DNA from: Crystallibacter permensis
GTDB lineage: Bacteria; Actinomycetota; Actinomycetes; Actinomycetales; Micrococcaceae
Assembly: GCF_025960875.1 (NCBI RefSeq)
Contig: NZ_JAODLR010000003.1
Coordinates: 1 to 64,000, forward strand
Reading direction: 5' to 3'
DNA: 64,000 nucleotides
Translations under genes and position numbers: made by a program
Part shown: one piece after another, positions 20,978 to 42,156 of the stretch
How the letters are laid out: every line of letters begins with the position of its first letter
How positions within the stretch are numbered: position 1 is the stretch's first letter
The notes under the pieces: model-generated
What the model was told of the DNA's origin: nothing
The model's input: only the letters and a program-made list of their open reading frames with translations
Database searches by the model: none

Positions 20978-22399
20978 CTACCCGGTGATGCGCAGCCGCT
21001 CCGGCAGCTTGGCCTTGCCTGCGGCGCCGACCGCTTCGCCCAATGCCCGGCCCTTGGTCTTCTCGGGACGTGCCGGGGACTTGTGCACCAGGCGTGACCC
21101 GGCACGGGAGGACGGGGATCCGATCAGCCGCGTGTGGTCGCCGTTGCGCATCCAATACGGGGTTGCCGCGAGCAACGGGGCGTTCTCGATGACTGCGGTG
21201 GCGTCGAAGGTTTCCCAGGGCGTGAAGGGGTAGTCGCCGAGCAGTTCGCGGGATGCCCACTTGCCTGGGCCTTTGGCGTCGTTGAGGGCGAAGTCGGCGC
21301 GCAGCGTGAAGAAGGCTTCGCTCATCAGGTGCCTGCCGGGAAACCATTCCTCCCAGTTGGCGACGCCGATGCGTGAGGCCGGGGAGTCTTCGCCGGTGCC
21401 GGGGAAGGAGCGCAGTACTTCGGCCAGGGTGCGGTAGATGCCGGCGCGCGGGTCCTTGCCTCCGGCCGTGCGGTCCGGGTGCGGTGCGGCGACGAACAGG
21501 ACGGTCAGGCCGGAGGTTTCCAGCGGCCGTTCGGTCATCAGCTGCGCCCACTTGCGGACCTTGTTCTTGAACGAGTCGCCGGTGGTCGCGGTGAGTTCGA
21601 CCGCGATGCGCAGTCCGTCCGCGCGTACCAGGACGCCGTCCGCGCGGCGCTGATAGGTCTCCGGCAGTTTCTTGCCGAGGCCCGAACCGGCCAGCAGATC
21701 GACGGTCGCGTACTTCTCCCCGAGCACCGCGCCCAAAGGCAGATACTCGGCTGCGCGCAGGCACAGCTCGGTGGCCAGCACGTTGTGCCGGTCGTGCAGT
21801 CCGACGTTCGACCATTCGGTGCCGCCGGTAACGGAGAGTTCCTCGGGCCAGGTCAGCCGGGGGCGGATGAGGTTCTCGAAGGCGTCCGGGTGGGCCGGCC
21901 GGTAAAGTGCGCCGCGCCGGGAGGTCCGGATGGCCAGTGGGTCACGGAAAGTGCCAATGTCCATCAGCCCGAGGGCGAAGGAAGCGGCAACGGTGGAGCC
22001 GTTCTCATCCGCGAGGTAGCTGCGCCCGGTGATGGCTGCCATCTGCTCGGCGGTGACCGTGCGCCAAGAATCAAGCACGGCCCAACAGGCGAGCTTCTCC
22101 TTCCAGTTGTAGCCGTGCATCAGCTTTTCCAAAGCCTCATCCTGGTTCAGCTGCATCTCTTTGCGAAGACCGGCGGTCGCATCACCGGCGCGCTGACGTG
22201 CCATCGCTGCAGTCGTCCAAACCGCTTGCGAGCCGGGAGCCCAGAGGCGGTCCCAGTACGGATCGCGGCGCATGTCGGCAGCCAGCTTGGGATCGGGACA
22301 GGCCGAAGGAATCATCTCCGCGTGCAGTACGCCTTCGGGTTCGCGGCGGAACGGTGCAACGGCGGAAACTTTGCGCCCGTCGAGGGCAGTGGTGGTCAT
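20978..22399 (-). CDS. Replication-relaxation family protein
   Basis: 473 residues from MTTTALDGRK. The middle carries WRTVTAEQMAAITGRS (a winged-helix-like segment near 125-140), and later LRIAVELTATTGDSFKNKVRKW (near 285-306). The latter is the conserved core of the replication-relaxation family found on actinobacterial plasmids and conjugative elements. The start overlaps the stop of the ATPase gene by one base (TGATG arrangement), so the two are co-translated. The family is thought to help process or mobilise plasmid DNA; the biochemical activity is not settled. Third-position G/C is typical for the host group. Confidence 0.75.
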   Translation of the reverse strand: MTTTALDGRKVSAVAPFRREPEGVLHAEMIPSACPDPKLAADMRRDPYWDRLWAPGSQAVWTTAAMARQRAGDATAGLRKEMQLNQDEALEKLMHGYNWKEKLACWAVLDSWRTVTAEQMAAITGRSYLADENGSTVAASFALGLMDIGTFRDPLAIRTSRRGALYRPAHPDAFENLIRPRLTWPEELSVTGGTEWSNVGLHDRHNVLATELCLRAAEYLPLGAVLGEKYATVDLLAGSGLGKKLPETYQRRADGVLVRADGLRIAVELTATTGDSFKNKVRKWAQLMTERPLETSGLTVLFVAAPHPDRTAGGKDPRAGIYRTLAEVLRSFPGTGEDSPASRIGVANWEEWFPGRHLMSEAFFTLRADFALNDAKGPGKWASRELLGDYPFTPWETFDATAVIENAPLLAATPYWMRNGDHTRLIGSPSSRAGSRLVHKSPARPEKTKGRALGEAVGAAGKAKLPERLRITG

Positions 22400-24873
22400 C
22401 AGGCTGCCGCCTCCGTGTATCCCTGGGCCGCCGGGTAGGAGGCCATGTTCGCTTCGAAGTTGGGCAGCTTCACGATGAATGCTGACTGCCGCTTCTGGTC
22501 GACTTCGGAGCGGATGACGACGTGGAAGGGTTCGAGGAACTGGATGTCTTCCTGCGTCCATTCGCCGTGGCCGCCGAGGTTGGCGGCGATCTCCTGGGCG
22601 GTGCCGACGTCGGTCTGGGAGAACGAGATCAGTGTCGCGTAGGTGAGGAAGTTGGAGCGCAGCTGCGGGCCCAGCTGCTCGGGCCGCTGCGTCGCCAGGA
22701 TGGCGCGGATGCCGTAGGAGCGGCCCTGGTCGCGGATCCATCCGATCACCTCGGGGCTGGAGCCGGAGAGCAGTGAAAGTTCGTCGGCGAAGATGGTCAC
22801 GTACCGCTGCTGTTCGAGCCAGCCGGAGGTCAGGCGCTTGAGTGCGTTCTGCAGCGAGAACATCAGCAGCGACGAGATGGCGTGGTTGACGGAGTCGTCC
22901 AGGACGGCGCCGGTAGCGGACGTGCCGGTGTTGATGATGACCGACTTGTGGCCTTCGATGATCTGGTCCCAGGTGACCTTACGGCGCGAGGGCGACCACC
23001 ACTGTTCGAGGGCGAGCAGGTCCTCGATCTTGGAGAACGGGGCTTCGACCAGGCCGGCACGTTTCGACGGGGTGGTGCCGTCGTATAGGAACGCGATGGC
23101 GGCCCAGCCGGCTTCGATGACCGGGTCGGGGTTGCCGCGTTCGCGCAGCTTCACTGAGCGCGCCTTGATGCCTTCGGCGAGTTCGACGCCGACTTTGTCG
23201 GAGCGGCCGGCGAGCAGCAGGTAGGCGTAGTACATCGGCGACATGCCGGTGCGGATGACTGCCGGGTCGCGGCCTTCGATGGATTCGATGAGTTCGTCGT
23301 TGACGGCCAGCGCCGCGGTGAGCACCGCCTTCAGGGTGGTGGACGAGCGGTAGCCGATGGCGTCTTTGCCGAATGTGTAGGTCATCGCGTTGGTGAAGAA
23401 GAGCGCCTTCTCTTCGTTGCTGCCGGGGACGGCGAACAGGTCGATGCCCGGGGTGTCCGGGTCGGCGACGTCGATGACGAGCGTGCGGTCGCCCATGTTG
23501 TGCGCCCAAGCTTGGTATTTTGCGACGCCGTCGCCTTTTGACTCGAACGCGATGAGCGTGTTGTTGCGCCCGGGGTAGCCGGGCCGGCCGCACGGTGCCA
23601 CGCGCTCCAGGCAGTTCCAGCCGAACAATGTGCGGGTAACCACGCTCTTCCCTGACCCGGGTTTGCCGACGATAGCCGTACCAAATAATTGCGCAGGCGC
23701 GGAGAGATACGCGCTACCGTCCTGGTTGGTGCCGATGAGCGGACCGATGCCCTGCAGCATTGCCGGCGGGGTGGCGCGTTCGCGCGAGACTGTCTCGCCG
23801 GAGATGGCGCCGGCGTGCGGGGAGACCATCCCGACGATGACGGTGGGGCCGACCAGGAACACATCGGGGGCGAACGGGTAGTCGCCGTCGAACGCCTTGA
23901 TGTGTTTCTCGATGGTCTTCTTCTCGCCGCCCTCGTTGATGGTCCGCTTGATCGTCTCTTCCTTGTGCGGCGGCCGCGGTTTCCTCCTGCGGTGCGGCGG
24001 CGGCGGGAACCCGGCGGCCGATAGTTTGGCGCGCAGCTTCACCTCGGGGGAGCGCATCCGGCCGGTGAGCCCGGCGATGCCGGTGATGAGCAGGAGCCCG
24101 GCGACGGCGAACAACGACGGAGCCGTGGAGGCGGGCAGGCCGAGCGGGATCTGCGGCAGGCCGAAGATGGTCGCGGCCGCGAGCAGCAGGCCGGCCGGGA
24201 CGCCGAGCCAGGAGCTGTGCTTCGTCTTTGGGAAGCGCACGTCGGTGTCCAGGTCGAAGCCCGGCATGCCGGAGGTGAACTGGCCCAGCAGCGCGCGGAC
24301 TTCGTCCTGGCTGGCGCCACCGGCGGTCACCGAGATCATGATCGCGCTCGGCGAGTAGGAGTGGTGCTGCGGGTTGGCGTTGCCCAGCCGGTAGTTGTGC
24401 CACTTGGTGTGGTGCTTGCGCTCCTTGCCGGACGGCTTGCGGATGGACGCGGCGACCCAGGAGCCCTCGGGCATCGTGTTGGCCAGCAGCTTCGGGAACT
24501 CGGACGGGTCGATGCCGTTCTGGGTTTCGCGCAGCACCGGCGACGGGCGGAAGGTCAGCGTTCCGATGACCGGGGTGTCGCCCAGATCCTCCGGCAGCTG
24601 CGTCTCCTCGGACTTCGCGCCCACCGTGTGCGCCAGCGCCAGGGCCGCTTTCGACCGGGCGGCTTCGGCCGGCATGATCACGTATCCGTTGAGCCCGGAC
24701 TTCTCCCGCCGGGTCAGCAGCGTCGTCGTGCCGTACTGGGTTGCGGCCGAGGCGAAGGTGTTCGCCCGCTGCATGAAGGTGGTCGGATTGGTGTCGATCC
24801 CGCCGGCGCGGGCCATCCGGAAAATGCGCTGTTCCATACCCTTGAACATGCGTAGACGACGCTCCCGTGGCAC
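22399..24873 (-). CDS. Conjugation ATPase, VirD4/TraC-like
   Basis: 824 residues from a GTG; an in-frame ATG lies 24 bases downstream (24849) and may be the real start. Two membrane spans lie near 222-239 and 252-270. Walker A GKPGSGKS is at 403-410, Walker B YVTIFADE at 691-698 and the ATQRP sensor at 727-731. The order membrane anchor / Walker A / B / QRP is that of coupling or secretion ATPases of Gram-positive conjugative systems. It should bring DNA or substrate to the channel. No other channel genes are here, so the transfer module is incomplete within the window. A complex inverted repeat and a hairpin array lie upstream. Confidence 0.85.
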   Translation of the reverse strand: MPRERRLRMFKGMEQRIFRMARAGGIDTNPTTFMQRANTFASAATQYGTTTLLTRREKSGLNGYVIMPAEAARSKAALALAHTVGAKSEETQLPEDLGDTPVIGTLTFRPSPVLRETQNGIDPSEFPKLLANTMPEGSWVAASIRKPSGKERKHHTKWHNYRLGNANPQHHSYSPSAIMISVTAGGASQDEVRALLGQFTSGMPGFDLDTDVRFPKTKHSSWLGVPAGLLLAAATIFGLPQIPLGLPASTAPSLFAVAGLLLITGIAGLTGRMRSPEVKLRAKLSAAGFPPPPHRRRKPRPPHKEETIKRTINEGGEKKTIEKHIKAFDGDYPFAPDVFLVGPTVIVGMVSPHAGAISGETVSRERATPPAMLQGIGPLIGTNQDGSAYLSAPAQLFGTAIVGKPGSGKSVVTRTLFGWNCLERVAPCGRPGYPGRNNTLIAFESKGDGVAKYQAWAHNMGDRTLVIDVADPDTPGIDLFAVPGSNEEKALFFTNAMTYTFGKDAIGYRSSTTLKAVLTAALAVNDELIESIEGRDPAVIRTGMSPMYYAYLLLAGRSDKVGVELAEGIKARSVKLRERGNPDPVIEAGWAAIAFLYDGTTPSKRAGLVEAPFSKIEDLLALEQWWSPSRRKVTWDQIIEGHKSVIINTGTSATGAVLDDSVNHAISSLLMFSLQNALKRLTSGWLEQQRYVTIFADELSLLSGSSPEVIGWIRDQGRSYGIRAILATQRPEQLGPQLRSNFLTYATLISFSQTDVGTAQEIAANLGGHGEWTQEDIQFLEPFHVVIRSEVDQKRQSAFIVKLPNFEANMASYPAAQGYTEAAA

Positions 24874-24885
24874 TCAGGCCCAGGA

Positions 24886-24945
24886 CCGGTGATTTGCGGC
24901 CTGAAATCCGCTGAGATTTCGGATACGGACCCTGCAAATCCCCGG
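24886..24945. repeat. Nested inverted repeats upstream of the conjugation ATPase
   Basis: CCGGTGATTTGC (24886-24897) is complementary to GCAAATCCCCGG (24934-24945) at 11 of 12 positions. Nested inside is a perfect dyad, GAAATC (24903-24908) with GATTTC (24915-24920). It lies 13 bases from the ATPase start on the upstream side. A nested dyad at the head of a transfer operon could be an autoregulatory operator or a nick region (oriT). Confidence 0.5.
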
Positions 24946-25275
24946 AAGCCGGTTATCGGCGGCTCCCGACCCCTTCAGTAGGCATTTCTCTGTCATCACG
25001 TGCAGCGGCCGCGAGGACCTACTTCACCTTGCCGGGGGCGGTCCCGGCCTGGTCATCTTGGGTATCTGATCTTGTGTGTGCGGCCGGGGCGGCGGGCGGA
25101 GGGGTTGGCGCGGACTTTGTCCGGGATTTTCTCCCAGTTGTACAACCTGTCAATCGTCCAGCCTGCAGCTGGGCACCCTGTAAAGCATGAAGCTTATCTG
25201 TACGGCTACGCCAGGACAATGATGAATCATCGCCTGCCCCTGACCTTTGCTTCGCAGAAGCTCAGGACCGTAAGG

Positions 25276-26388
25276 GCGGCTGCGCCGCGGGAGTCGGTGG
25301 GTCCGGCCGCAAGCGGCCTTGATGTGTGGGTTGGTGTCCGGCCGCCCGGCTGTCGGTTGCTGCGCAACGCTCCGTGCCGTGCGTCCTGGCGGGGGTGCGT
25401 GTCGGCCAAGACGGGGTCGATGAAGAGGGTGCAGTATTGCACGGGGCAGTGGTCAGCTTGTGCATGAATGTGCACTTGGGAGATGTGGCCTTCGGCCATG
25501 AAGGAGCGGGGTCGTCTCATCGACGACCGGACCGGTCTGCGACCCGGATGACGGATAGGCTGCCCATCAAGCAGCATCCTCTCCGGCAGGGCGGAGCCCT
25601 GCACAGCGACCAGCCAACGTTCAGCCAGACGATAAGGGAACGAACAGCGTCCCCTGCCGCGCAGCGGCATCCACCACGAGCAGGCCAGGGACCTGCAGCA
25701 ACACCCGGCTAGGCACCCACCCTGCGGCGAAGCCGCAAGACACCATGAAGCACCGCACTACGTGCGGCGCAAATGTCCCACAGGCTGCGGGAGATTCCCC
25801 ATCAAGAGTGCAACAAGCCGTTGCACTAATCGGGGCACTAAAAGTGCCACAAGCCGTGGCACCTTCGGGATCACCCAATGGTCCAAAGTTCTCTGGACAA
25901 TTCGAGAAGGACGCCAATAGTCCAGACACCGTCTGGACAAATAGAGCCACGCCAATCGTGCAGACACTCTCTGCACAAAGAGGCTCCGCTAGTTGCGCAG
26001 CAGGCCGCTGCCCGAATCAACGCGAAGCCCGAGACAACAACAGGCACGGCCAGCAAGGAGCCAAAGCAACCAAGAAGCATCCATGCGGCGCAGCCGCACG
26101 TCATACGCACAGCAAACCGGGGAGTGAAACGAAAAGGGAAACGAAGCGGGACCGCCCGCGCAGCGGGCTGGAAAGCGGAACGTCACCATGCAGGGGAGGC
26201 GTCACGATGCACGGGGTCACCAAAGCGACGGGAGCGCCAGCGACCAAAGCGAAGGAGACCCGGCGGCGCAGCCGCCAGTTCACCACAAAGGACAACCGAG
26301 ACGAAGACGACACGACACCAAGGTGAACGCATCGGGACCCGGACAGCAACACGGAACGGTTCGCTTTCGGGTGAGGCGCGCCAGCGCC
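25276..26388. repeat. Array of short perfect hairpins in a gene-free region
   Basis: Some twenty small dyads lie in 1.1 kb with no supportable gene (the whole of 24874-26558 is otherwise empty). Six share a stem closed by C-GNA-G: 25586-25602 (loop GGA, 7 bp), 25655-25669 (GCA), 25723-25737 (GAA), 26084-26098 (GCA), 26154-26168 (GCA) and 26262-26276 (GCA). The stem sequences differ but both arms change together. Others have GTGC/GCAC or GTCC/GGAC arms: 25429-25442, 25460-25475, 25807-25827, 25844-25862, 25920-25938 and 25958-25976. The array lies upstream of the minus-strand transfer genes. Seen: the pairings. Inferred: a structured DNA or RNA element. Confidence 0.7.
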
Positions 26389-26558
26389 GAACCCTCTTAA
26401 CATATGGGCCACCGCTGCATTCGGCTGACAAAAATTTCCCGATGGCCCGGCCGTAGCTCCCGTTCGGTTTCCGTACTCGGTCCTGCGGCTATCGCCGTCG
26501 TCCGGCCCGCGCGTTCGCTTGGCCTGGGCTTGCGGCTACCGCCGGCCTGCCGGATGGC

Positions 26559-27398
26559 TTAGGGCAGGTGGCTGCCGGCGGGGACAGGTTCTCCCGTCAG
26601 CATCACCGGCGCATCGCAAAAGCTATCTTCGGTGAACTGCAGGGTGGGGTCGGTGGAAATCGGATCGAGCATCCAGTGCGTGATCGACTCCCACTCGTCC
26701 GAATAGACGTCGTAGGGCGAATCAAACTGCAGTGTGGCCCCGGGCTTAAGCGAGATGTGGAATGGCCGCAGCTCACCTGGCGCGGTCTTGTACTTGTACT
26801 CGGGCCGGAATTCGGCTGCGCGTTCACCGTCACGGTCGATTCCAATGACGGCTACCGAATTCCAAAGGTAGGCTTCGACGGCGGCAACGGTGTCATTGGT
26901 CAGATGCCCGGAGACTTCCACCATCCGTGTGGCTTCCGAGTCGCCTTCGGCGATCACATTGACGTCTTCCAGGATCAGGGTTGCCTGACCGGCCGGGCAT
27001 GAAAGCTCCGGCCAGTCGTCATACTCAAGCGGGTCCGGATCATCAGCCGGAGCGGCAGGCTCCTCGAAAGGAGCGGAACCAGGCTGCGGCGCATTCGGCG
27101 TGGGGAGCGGCGGCTGAAATTGTTCAGGCTGTTGCTCTGCTGGTGGAGCGGGAGCCGGCGTTTGCAGCTCGGGTCGGGCAGCCAGCTGGGACTCCTCGGG
27201 CGTCGGGGTCTCGTTCTTCTCTGTAGCTGATGCAGCGGGAGGCGGCGAGGTCGGAGCCTTGACCGATGTTTGCGCCGCCTGGTTATTCGCCGAGTCGTCC
27301 GGGCCGGTCAGCCAGATCAGACCCAATGCAAGTGCAACGGCAACCGCGACGGCCAGGATGCCAAGCATCGCGAGCTCAATCCGGCTCATTTTCCCCAT
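26559..27398 (-). CDS. Membrane-anchored protein with Pro-rich linker
   Basis: 279 residues. One hydrophobic segment (about 8-30) anchors the protein. A linker of Pro, Ala, Thr and Glu follows (35-125, with APTSPPPAAS and PAPPAEQQPEQ). The rest (130-279) is a soluble domain with two cysteines (LSCPAG and SFCDAPV) that may pair outside the cell. It resembles surface proteins of plasmids and mobile elements in layout only. I recognise no family. The start gives a positively charged MGKMSR before the span. Confidence 0.65.
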   Translation of the reverse strand: MGKMSRIELAMLGILAVAVAVALALGLIWLTGPDDSANNQAAQTSVKAPTSPPPAASATEKNETPTPEESQLAARPELQTPAPAPPAEQQPEQFQPPLPTPNAPQPGSAPFEEPAAPADDPDPLEYDDWPELSCPAGQATLILEDVNVIAEGDSEATRMVEVSGHLTNDTVAAVEAYLWNSVAVIGIDRDGERAAEFRPEYKYKTAPGELRPFHISLKPGATLQFDSPYDVYSDEWESITHWMLDPISTDPTLQFTEDSFCDAPVMLTGEPVPAGSHLP

Positions 27399-28915: not shown

Positions 28916-29848
28916 ATGTCAGGCCATCAGTCTCATCCTGCCCAAATTCAGTATAGGAAGTGGGTTCCGACGGCATCCTTCTGGATTACCGCGAGCATCC
29001 TCTTCCTCCTGTTGGTCCTGTTTTCCTTTGCCGCCGGGTTAGGGGGATTCGGCGTATTCCTTACTCTGCTGGGCATTATTTCCCTCATTACCGGGCTCTT
29101 TGCGCTGATCTTCAAACGCAGGTCCTGGATTGGATTGCAAAATCGAAAGGGCGCGAAGACGACCATTTGGAGCGGGGTTGTTGTTCTTGTCGTCGGGCTA
29201 GCTATTTCCGGTACTTCAGCCACAGCGGTCAATGAAGACGAGCCATTCGCAACGGCGACGGCGACTCCGTCGCCGAGTGCCAGCAGCATTGCCTTGACCT
29301 CCTGCGACGACGAAGATATGCGGCGCGGATTCCAATCGGAAATCTTCTTCTGCACTGAGGACGAGGACGGAGTCCTCGTGTGGATGGATCGGGATTCGCA
29401 CGACACGATCGTTGCTGACCGCGCAGCAGAGGCAGCAGAGCTAAAGGCGAAGGAAGAAGCGGCGAAGAAGGCCGCTGCTGAGAAGAAGGCCGAGGAAGAG
29501 GCAGCGAAGAAGGAAGCGGCTGAGAAGAAGGCCAACGAAGAAGCAGCGAAGAAGGAAGCGGCTGAGAAGAAGGCTCAGGAAGAAGCTGACCGGCAAGCTG
29601 AGGCCGAGCGGCAGGCCGAGGCCGACCGCCAGGCTGAAGAAGCCCGAAGGCTAGCTGAAGAGCAGGCACAGCAGGAAGCAGAGCCGTTCGTACCTGCTCC
29701 CGCACCAGCCCCTGCAGCACCTGCTGGCGGATTTGAGAACTGTTCAGCCGCTCGGGCGGCTGGAGCGGCCCCCGTTTACGCCGGGCAACCTGGCTATGGG
29801 TCCCACCTTGACCGCGACGGGGACGGAATCGGCTGCGATAACGGCTGA
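28916..29848 (+). CDS. Membrane protein with coiled coil and excalibur domain
   Basis: 310 residues. Three hydrophobic spans lie between about 20 and 100. After a short Cys-containing stretch (SCDDEDM...FFCTEDEDG) comes a long TolA-like helix, about 168-255, made of AEKKAEEEAAKKEA-type repeats. Then comes an Ala-Pro linker and a C-terminal excalibur domain, FENCSAARAAGAAP to LDRDGDGIGCD, a short calcium-binding motif of extracellular proteins. GGGGG stands 5 bases before the ATG. The coiled coil probably spans the wall to present the calcium domain. The next gene ends in the same domain. Confidence 0.75.
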   Translation: MSGHQSHPAQIQYRKWVPTASFWITASILFLLLVLFSFAAGLGGFGVFLTLLGIISLITGLFALIFKRRSWIGLQNRKGAKTTIWSGVVVLVVGLAISGTSATAVNEDEPFATATATPSPSASSIALTSCDDEDMRRGFQSEIFFCTEDEDGVLVWMDRDSHDTIVADRAAEAAELKAKEEAAKKAAAEKKAEEEAAKKEAAEKKANEEAAKKEAAEKKAQEEADRQAEAERQAEADRQAEEARRLAEEQAQQEAEPFVPAPAPAPAAPAGGFENCSAARAAGAAPVYAGQPGYGSHLDRDGDGIGCDNG

Positions 29849-42151: not shown

Positions 42152-42156
42152 GTCAG

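Follow-up and report, generated by a model that had tools for sequence, protein, structure and literature searches.

Background

Double-stranded DNA sites of the KOPS and clt types are polar motif arrays in which a short core is repeated and complementarity of the flanks is not required. Sponge-type RNAs such as CsrB and RsmZ carry many hairpins that share a loop motif on variable stems. GNA or GNNA loops set on G-C pairs give extraordinarily stable DNA mini-hairpins, according to excerpts of one report (PMC4686876). Excerpts of work on actinobacterial telomeres describe GCTXCGC motifs and GCA loops in Tap-bound palindromes (PMC7276702, PMC4513846), the palindromes bound by Tap being II and III (PMC4513846). 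The present analysis concerns a gap in the genome of Crystallibacter permensis, for which no description was found in the open-access literature.

The gene-free gap and its hairpins

The window (the whole 64-kb stretch of C. permensis DNA that was analysed) contains the following features at and around the gap:

20978-22399, minus strand: 473-aa protein, family unassigned, overlapping the stop of the coupling-protein gene
22399-24873, minus strand: VirD4/TraG-like coupling protein (T4CP), 824 aa, 60-66% identical to plasmid orthologs
24874-26558, no strand: gene-free gap containing the element in full, flanked by the coupling-protein gene and the next gene
24874-25492, minus strand: left half, minus strand T-poor and with more GNA loops than the plus strand
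25153-25126, minus strand: promoter-like site, leftward (promoter scan)
25276-25288, minus strand: left-half dyad, minus-strand GNA, 5 bp
25356-25368, minus strand: left-half dyad, minus-strand GNA, 5 bp
25486-25498, minus strand: dyad at the switch point, minus-strand GNA, 5 bp
25493-26413, plus strand: right half, main hairpin array, T-poor plus strand, AT skew +0.46, six GNA dyads and one TNC dyad
25586-25602, plus strand: hairpin 1, GGA loop, 7 bp, GCAGGGC.GGA.GCCCTGC
25655-25669, plus strand: hairpin 2, GCA loop, 6 bp, TGCCGC.GCA.GCGGCA
25723-25737, plus strand: hairpin 3, GAA loop, 6 bp, TGCGGC.GAA.GCCGCA
25776-26011, no strand: seven further palindromes with other loops, 33-40 nt apart, between hairpins 3 and 4
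25894-25921, plus strand: promoter-like site, rightward (promoter scan)
26084-26098, plus strand: hairpin 4, GCA loop, 6 bp, TGCGGC.GCA.GCCGCA
26154-26168, plus strand: hairpin 5, GCA loop, 6 bp, GCCCGC.GCA.GCGGGC
26262-26276, plus strand: hairpin 6, GCA loop, 6 bp, GGCGGC.GCA.GCCGCC
26373-26400, plus strand: conserved end motif, GAGG, hairpin, then CCTCTTAA, with CATATG coming next in the window
26559-27398, minus strand: next predicted gene beyond the gap (gene prediction)

An earlier sequence-only reading of this DNA had pointed out the six hairpins in the right half, and all six are there, with perfect Watson-Crick stems and all of the form C-GNA-G on the plus strand. At stems of at least 6 bp these are the six C-GNA-G dyads of positions 25500-26420, whereas 2000 dinucleotide-preserving shuffles of the same positions, counted at the same stem length, contained on average 0.007 such dyads and at most one. 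The plus strand of the rest of the window has one further dyad of this kind (at 29361), and the minus strand of the window has four, one of them (25753) within the array region. The view that the region lacks a credible gene also stands, as four open reading frames tested in the gap have no Pfam match at E 0.001, and homologous gaps on plasmids are mostly free of listed genes (the plasmid gene table being incomplete). A coding region was rejected on the basis of five pairwise alignments, in which 13 of 96 indels are multiples of three and substitutions have no codon period. A CRISPR-like array was rejected because positions 24900-26700 contain only five two-copy, partly matching repeat families. 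The six hairpins are not the whole of the element: it is much larger, and comprises two halves of opposed polarity and a conserved end motif.

Four of the seven palindromes between hairpins 3 and 4 were found by computation to be perfect with stems of at least 6 bp, and three were read by eye. They differ in their stems (e.g., GTCCAGACACCGTCTGGAC), and resembling palindromes are also present in the relatives G002 and G004. Palindromes like these occur singly elsewhere in the family, one of them within an open reading frame (L052:7124-7150). Variable palindromic repeats of this sort may form a family of their own.

The window is the start of a contig of 364.5 kb (C3), and housekeeping genes are located at 45-58 kb on the same contig; thus, this copy of the element is integrated rather than carried on a plasmid. 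Pfam matches at positions 720-20728 comprise genes of a heavy-metal P-type ATPase, cation efflux, an ArsR-type regulator and a disulphide oxidoreductase, read as a metal-resistance island adjoining the array. The tRNA-Lys gene at 42156 was rejected as an edge of this island, since its surroundings have no 16-nt repeat in the window or in C3 at 60-220 kb.

Distribution among related genomes

Related gaps were located on plasmids of approximately 400 kb in the Micrococcaceae and in chromosomes. The plasmid orthologs of the coupling protein listed above are encoded on five plasmids of 375-440 kb from Paenarthrobacter, Pseudarthrobacter and Arthrobacter, more distant orthologs are found in Curtobacterium and Glaciihabitans, and 14 of the 395 sampled genomes of the family, C. 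permensis included, possess the protein. On the five plasmids, and on both of those from Curtobacterium that were examined, the coupling gene is directly preceded by 1.3-1.9 kb without listed genes; the array end runs into a small annotated open reading frame in pYJN5-1. The coupling-protein gene is in two separated pieces in G002 (L024/L030), and contains two internal TGA codons in G345 (L026).

Of the 20 upstream regions extracted, 18 were counted; the two excluded, G243 and G229, are broken or fragmentary. Wherever the end motif was not found, the far end of the gap was placed by hand. The expectation that clusters of such hairpins recur in related elements was borne out: beyond 600 nt, 15 of the 18 gaps carry 3-9 plus-strand C-GNA-G dyads, and their shuffles average at most 0.1. 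There are no GNA dyads in the gaps of Curtobacterium sp. MCSS17_016 and G214 or in that of Glaciihabitans, which is just 604 nt long, and four in the other Curtobacterium gap. Most of these arrays were found by inspecting DNA upstream of the coupling gene, so the association of array and coupling gene is partly by design, from which the search for the end motif described below is exempt.

In a DNA search of 148 related genomes, ten had matches, one of them being C. permensis itself. The matches of G002 and G004 run the length of the array, and that of G005 covers 43 nt at the end motif; in the remaining six they are limited to 25-52 nt, and the surrounding regions that were retrieved contain no GNA cluster. 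The genome_contigs collection contributed one near relative. The sole DNA match in the plasmid collection is of the surroundings of hairpin 3 to plasmid NZ_CP061722.1 (87.8% over 49 nt).

Strand asymmetry of the two halves

Within 1.3-1.6 kb, the gap holds 10 of 31, 5 of 22, 11 of 43 and 8 of 28 of all C-GNA-G dyads on four complete plasmids, and is their sole cluster, no other 1.6 kb having more than three. On each of the four, the strongest AT skew over 600 nt is likewise that of the gap (size 0.75, 0.67, 0.83 and 0.62), the next window outside the gap reaching at most 0.46. The right half in C. permensis holds the most extreme 600-nt AT skew of the 64 kb. The left half there has a plus-strand AT skew of -0.19, and the switch point, which was chosen as the point of greatest AT-skew contrast, is 619 nt from the start of the T4CP gene.

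With fixed cuts, the AT skew is -0.11 to -0.51 in the first 620 nt from the coupling gene and +0.26 to +0.71 from 700 nt to the end in all 15 of 15 gaps, including both from Curtobacterium, although individual bins depart from this pattern, the clearest cases being two late ones in Curtobacterium sp. MCSS17_016. The hairpins follow the same division when the switch is set at the greatest contrast: in 11 homologs, the 110 triloop dyads of the right halves include 70 of the C-GNA-G and 9 of the C-TNC-G type, and the 42 of the left halves include 7 and 21, respectively. In each tabulated homolog, there is one region at which both the polarity of the hairpins and the AT skew reverse. The Curtobacterium gaps (L036 4208-5985 and L037 4100-5985) have a strong AT-skew flip with only four and no GNA dyads. 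Thus, AT skew is more broadly conserved than the hairpins, and may have a cause of its own.

Spacing, selection and turnover of the hairpins

Spacings of 50-72 nt account for 39 of the 85 between successive right-half dyads with stems of at least 4 bp in ten homologs. This range was picked after inspection, and hence the best 23-nt range was compared with 1000 random placements, for which the mean was 21.5 and the maximum 30, against the 39 observed; with eight lineages, the best range holds 31 of 68 spacings, against a random mean of 18.2 and maximum of 28. As judged from the sequences, the array has a preferred pitch of approximately 60 nt.

Stems of at least 4 bp extend from 82 of the 113 GCGNAGC cores in the right halves of 11 homologs, and stems of at least 5 bp from 65, compared with 135 and 26, respectively, of the 2092 such cores on both strands of the rest of the four plasmids. 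Thus, the palindromic extension, and not the core alone, is selected, in agreement with the sequence-only reading that the fold is under selection. The same counts speak against a plain double-strand heptamer code of the KOPS or clt type, in which complementary flanks would not be needed.

The further claim that the arms change together fared less well. Of 348 pair positions in nine array comparisons, which are pairwise comparisons of related arrays and not independent, 280 are unchanged, 15 have double compensating changes, 5 have single tolerated changes, 40 are broken, and 8 are gapped; in slid control pairs, both sides changed in 64 of 1689. The outer pair of hairpin 4, for example, is T-A in the window and G-C in G004. 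The 15 compensating changes speak for paired change of the arms and the 40 broken pairs against it, position-by-position covariation in the arrays is modest, and the differing stems are more a result of hairpin turnover than of clean covariation. The hairpins come and go; their polarity and spacing preference remain.

The end motif and the adjoining operon

The sequence CCTCTTAA with its hairpin closes the right half in 10 of the 20 upstream regions, and is absent, for example, from zg-Y1110 and zg-Y453. A longer pattern of the end motif was found in 8 of 395 genomes of the family, C. permensis included, with no control match among the matches listed. This search was made without the coupling protein, and seven of the eight sites are beside the coupling gene, the eighth (G434) being beside its operon partner. 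Among 396 genomes of the order, only C. permensis itself matched, and the end motif was not found in the viral collection. The end motif is a possible candidate for a nick site or an RNA 3' end.

All five plasmid orthologs of the T4CP are annotated as 'type IV secretory system conjugative DNA transfer family protein'. The T4CP itself has no Pfam match at 0.001, and the pACHL01 ortholog has a TraG-D_C match below the Pfam cut-off. For the 473-aa protein, there was no match in the PDB, no Pfam match better than E 0.088, and no relative in the viral collection; no relaxase family of a known kind was recognised in it, and its single-sequence AlphaFold model (mean pLDDT 34) was unusable. An invariant D...E-x-T pattern, seen by eye in the alignment of this protein, could belong to a PD-(D/E)XK-like nuclease.

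The 473-aa protein is present in 18 of 395 genomes, C. permensis included, of which five have no match to the coupling protein. Two of these, G395 (L159) and G434 (L148), have kept the array, CCTCTTAA and the 473-aa gene in the chromosome and have lost the coupling gene, of which an N-terminal remnant is left (49 aligned residues in the first of the pair, 21 at E 0.46 in the other). As for the others, G384 is cut by a contig end, and G009 and G184 have fragments without an array. A second copy in G434 has CCTCTTAA approximately 0.7 kb upstream and no dyads; here, the 8-mer could be due to chance. The sequence comparisons delineate a conserved module: end motif, GNA array on the T-poor strand, switch point, opposed half, and an operon of T4CP and 473-aa protein.

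The C. permensis genome (G000) is without the AAA_10 ATPase (putatively VirB4-like) of pACHL01, so the copy in the window would need a helper. Plasmid pACHL01 (L060-L068) is annotated with its own DnaE, LigA, SSB, ribonucleotide reductase, RtcB, sigma factor, Tad and type IV pilus genes, and has no listed gene at 27.3-32.7 kb.

Possible functions of the gap

The gap is a non-coding cis region near transfer genes, as is expected of an oriT. Taken together, the end-motif sites, the losses of the coupling gene and the chemistry of the loops point to a transfer-related, single-stranded cis site tied to the 473-aa protein. The explanation that we tentatively favour is that the gap may be an origin-of-transfer-like cis site (an oriT or its single-strand processing region) that acts as folded single-stranded DNA; the step from the anatomy of the array to transfer is one that we infer. 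Nicking near the end motif followed by unwinding would expose the T-poor strand, which could fold into a row of very stable mini-hairpins. These might be recognised by the 473-aa protein, the coupling protein or another part of the relaxosome, and as a consequence the strand might be loaded, held or re-closed at the transfer channel.

Several observations weigh against a transfer site. The left half is polarised in the opposite direction, while the transferred strand is one strand, and the model leaves the left half unexplained. The gaps poor in GNA dyads (four and none in Curtobacterium, none in G214 or Glaciihabitans) do not fit it well, nor does PLSDB typing, by which the array-bearing plasmids are non-mobilizable, nor does the adjoining protein, in which no known relaxase family was recognised. 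Modest covariation, two outward promoter-like sites, and folding energies that are equal for DNA and RNA also count against it.

The suggestion of the sequence-only reading that the element works as single-stranded DNA gains from the loop types, which suit single-stranded DNA. C-GNA-G accounts for 83 of 124 triloops in 13 homologs. The 33 tetraloops of these homologs include 15 of the GNNA type, 2 of which are GNRA, and none of the UNCG type. The 13 non-GNRA loops of the GNNA type were all called GCCA, yet one further GNNA-type loop listed is GGGA, and five of the GCCA loops are the end hairpin itself; thus, with GNNA loops that are nearly all GCCA, the evidence from tetraloops is thinner than that from triloops. 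T-depletion could account for the absence of UNCG, but not for the missing GNRA. With ViennaRNA parameters, GNA and TNC hairpins are equal in energy, as DNA and as RNA, and the strand preference therefore rests on the cited chemistry of the loops.

A structured RNA, also suggested by the sequence-only reading, stays as the main rival, and is a substantial though doubtful possibility. On this view, two structured RNAs would be transcribed divergently from the gap: to the left, a leader of the T4CP operon, and to the right, a non-coding RNA whose end is the end motif. Their repeated GNA hairpins would bind a protein in a sponge-like manner. Divergent transcription would yield a flip of polarity and AT skew at one region, as is seen; T-poor linkers (T 8.4%, A 27.6%) suit unpaired RNA; and the end motif consists of a GC hairpin followed by a T-richer stretch. 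A promoter scan of positions 24850-26650 gave the two sites listed above, both directed outward, against 0.2 in shuffles; no site is within 300 nt of the switch point, although actinobacterial promoters may escape such a scan. Because the outward pair fits divergent transcription, we have slightly raised our estimate for RNA and slightly lowered that for DNA. RNA folding compared with shuffled sequence gave a divided result. The z scores are -4.8 and -3.3 in two 200-nt stretches of the plus strand of the window, and some stretches of G004, G005, G159 and YJN5 have values of -3 to -4.2 on either the plus or the minus strand. However, the low values in the window coincide with the second set of palindromes, most stretches of the right halves of G177 and G159 score close to zero, and the scores for A6 are modest. 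Tetraloops of the kinds that are stable in RNA are almost lacking, and at the gathering score Rfam matched only a tRNA in the window and nothing in the gap, while a permissive search of the window and the A6 gaps gave only sub-threshold matches (E up to 5, best 0.035). If the element is RNA instead, it would be a pair of long, U-poor, hairpin-repeat RNAs without an Rfam match.

It is improbable that the gap is only a regulatory leader or operator of the T4CP operon, kept beside the downstream gene as its promoter. The gap is directly upstream of the operon, one promoter-like site points to the operon, and deletions of the T4CP gene leave the gap upstream of the 473-aa gene; the hairpin-rich half, however, is distal, approximately 500 nt or more from the gene, and its polarity points away.

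The sequence-only reading had also proposed an origin, and a vegetative replication origin or primosome-loading site, with hairpins on the two lagging-strand templates of forks leaving the switch point, is quite unlikely. We infer that the polarity of both halves would fit the lagging-strand templates of divergent forks, but the arrays of A6, YJN5 and BIM B-2242 are 72-152 kb from both extremes of cumulative GC skew, the GC-skew maximum is near a primase-helicase-like gene on four plasmids, and the module also persists in chromosomes. In zg-Y453, the array is separated from the GC-skew minimum by approximately 20 kb and from the maximum by 70 kb, and there an origin, though still unlikely, is less firmly excluded. 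On the four plasmids (L060-L068, L073-L135), the GC-skew maximum is within approximately 12 kb of the primase-helicase-like gene (DUF3854 and helicase, weak Pfam matches), and perhaps marks the start or end of replication.

It is very improbable that the element derives from a telomere, whether as a relic lying internally or as a functional relative of the ends of linear plasmids in actinobacteria. The left ends of pAL1, pBD2 and pRHL1 do carry C-TNC-G palindromes within approximately 90 nt, with GNA thus on the 3' strand, and a C-GAA-G is found approximately 124 nt from the right end of pAL1. The array, however, is located internally in circular plasmid records or chromosomal contigs; tblastn with the 369 C-terminal residues of the telomere-associated protein of pAL1 gave no significant match in four plasmids and the window (best E 1.4); and four telomere ends have AT skews of only -0.15 to +0.21 over 300 nt.

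To return to a transfer site acting as single-stranded DNA, a more specific form of this explanation is a new class of mobilisation origin, in which a long bidirectional array of GNA mini-hairpins would act as folded single-stranded DNA together with a 473-aa relaxosome protein outside the known relaxase families, the array and this protein forming a portable unit carried even by chromosomes without the coupling protein; in this full form, it is rather unlikely. If the gap is a transfer origin, it would explain by what means actinobacterial plasmids of approximately 400 kb that are typed as non-mobilizable could move, as well as chromosomal copies beside metal-related genes, such as that of C. 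permensis, and would provide a sequence signature for finding further examples. In addition, it would offer a natural example of selection for DNA-specific hairpin loops that is legible in sequence, and would make the folding of single-stranded DNA in vivo directly testable.

Comparison with known systems

From the sponge RNAs CsrB and RsmZ, the array differs in that its loops suit DNA and the gap has no Rfam match at the gathering score. Like an oriT, the gap is a non-coding cis region by a coupling-protein operon, and in 10 of the 20 upstream regions a hairpin adjoins a conserved short motif that might be nic-like; unlike an oriT, it is long, repetitive and polarised on both strands, and no known relaxase family was recognised in the adjoining protein. 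With actinobacterial telomeres (Streptomyces palindromes II and III, Rhodococcus GCTXCGC motifs, and pAL1), the array shares short palindromes that close on C-GNA-G with strand polarity, but it is internal, extends over approximately 0.5-1 kb with 3-9 dyads at a pitch of approximately 60 nt, and has opposed halves and extreme AT skew. With the d(GCGNAGC) and GNNA mini-hairpins it shares the rule of the loops, which excerpts of that work present for oligonucleotides and aptamers (PMC4686876), whereas here these loops recur in a natural array.
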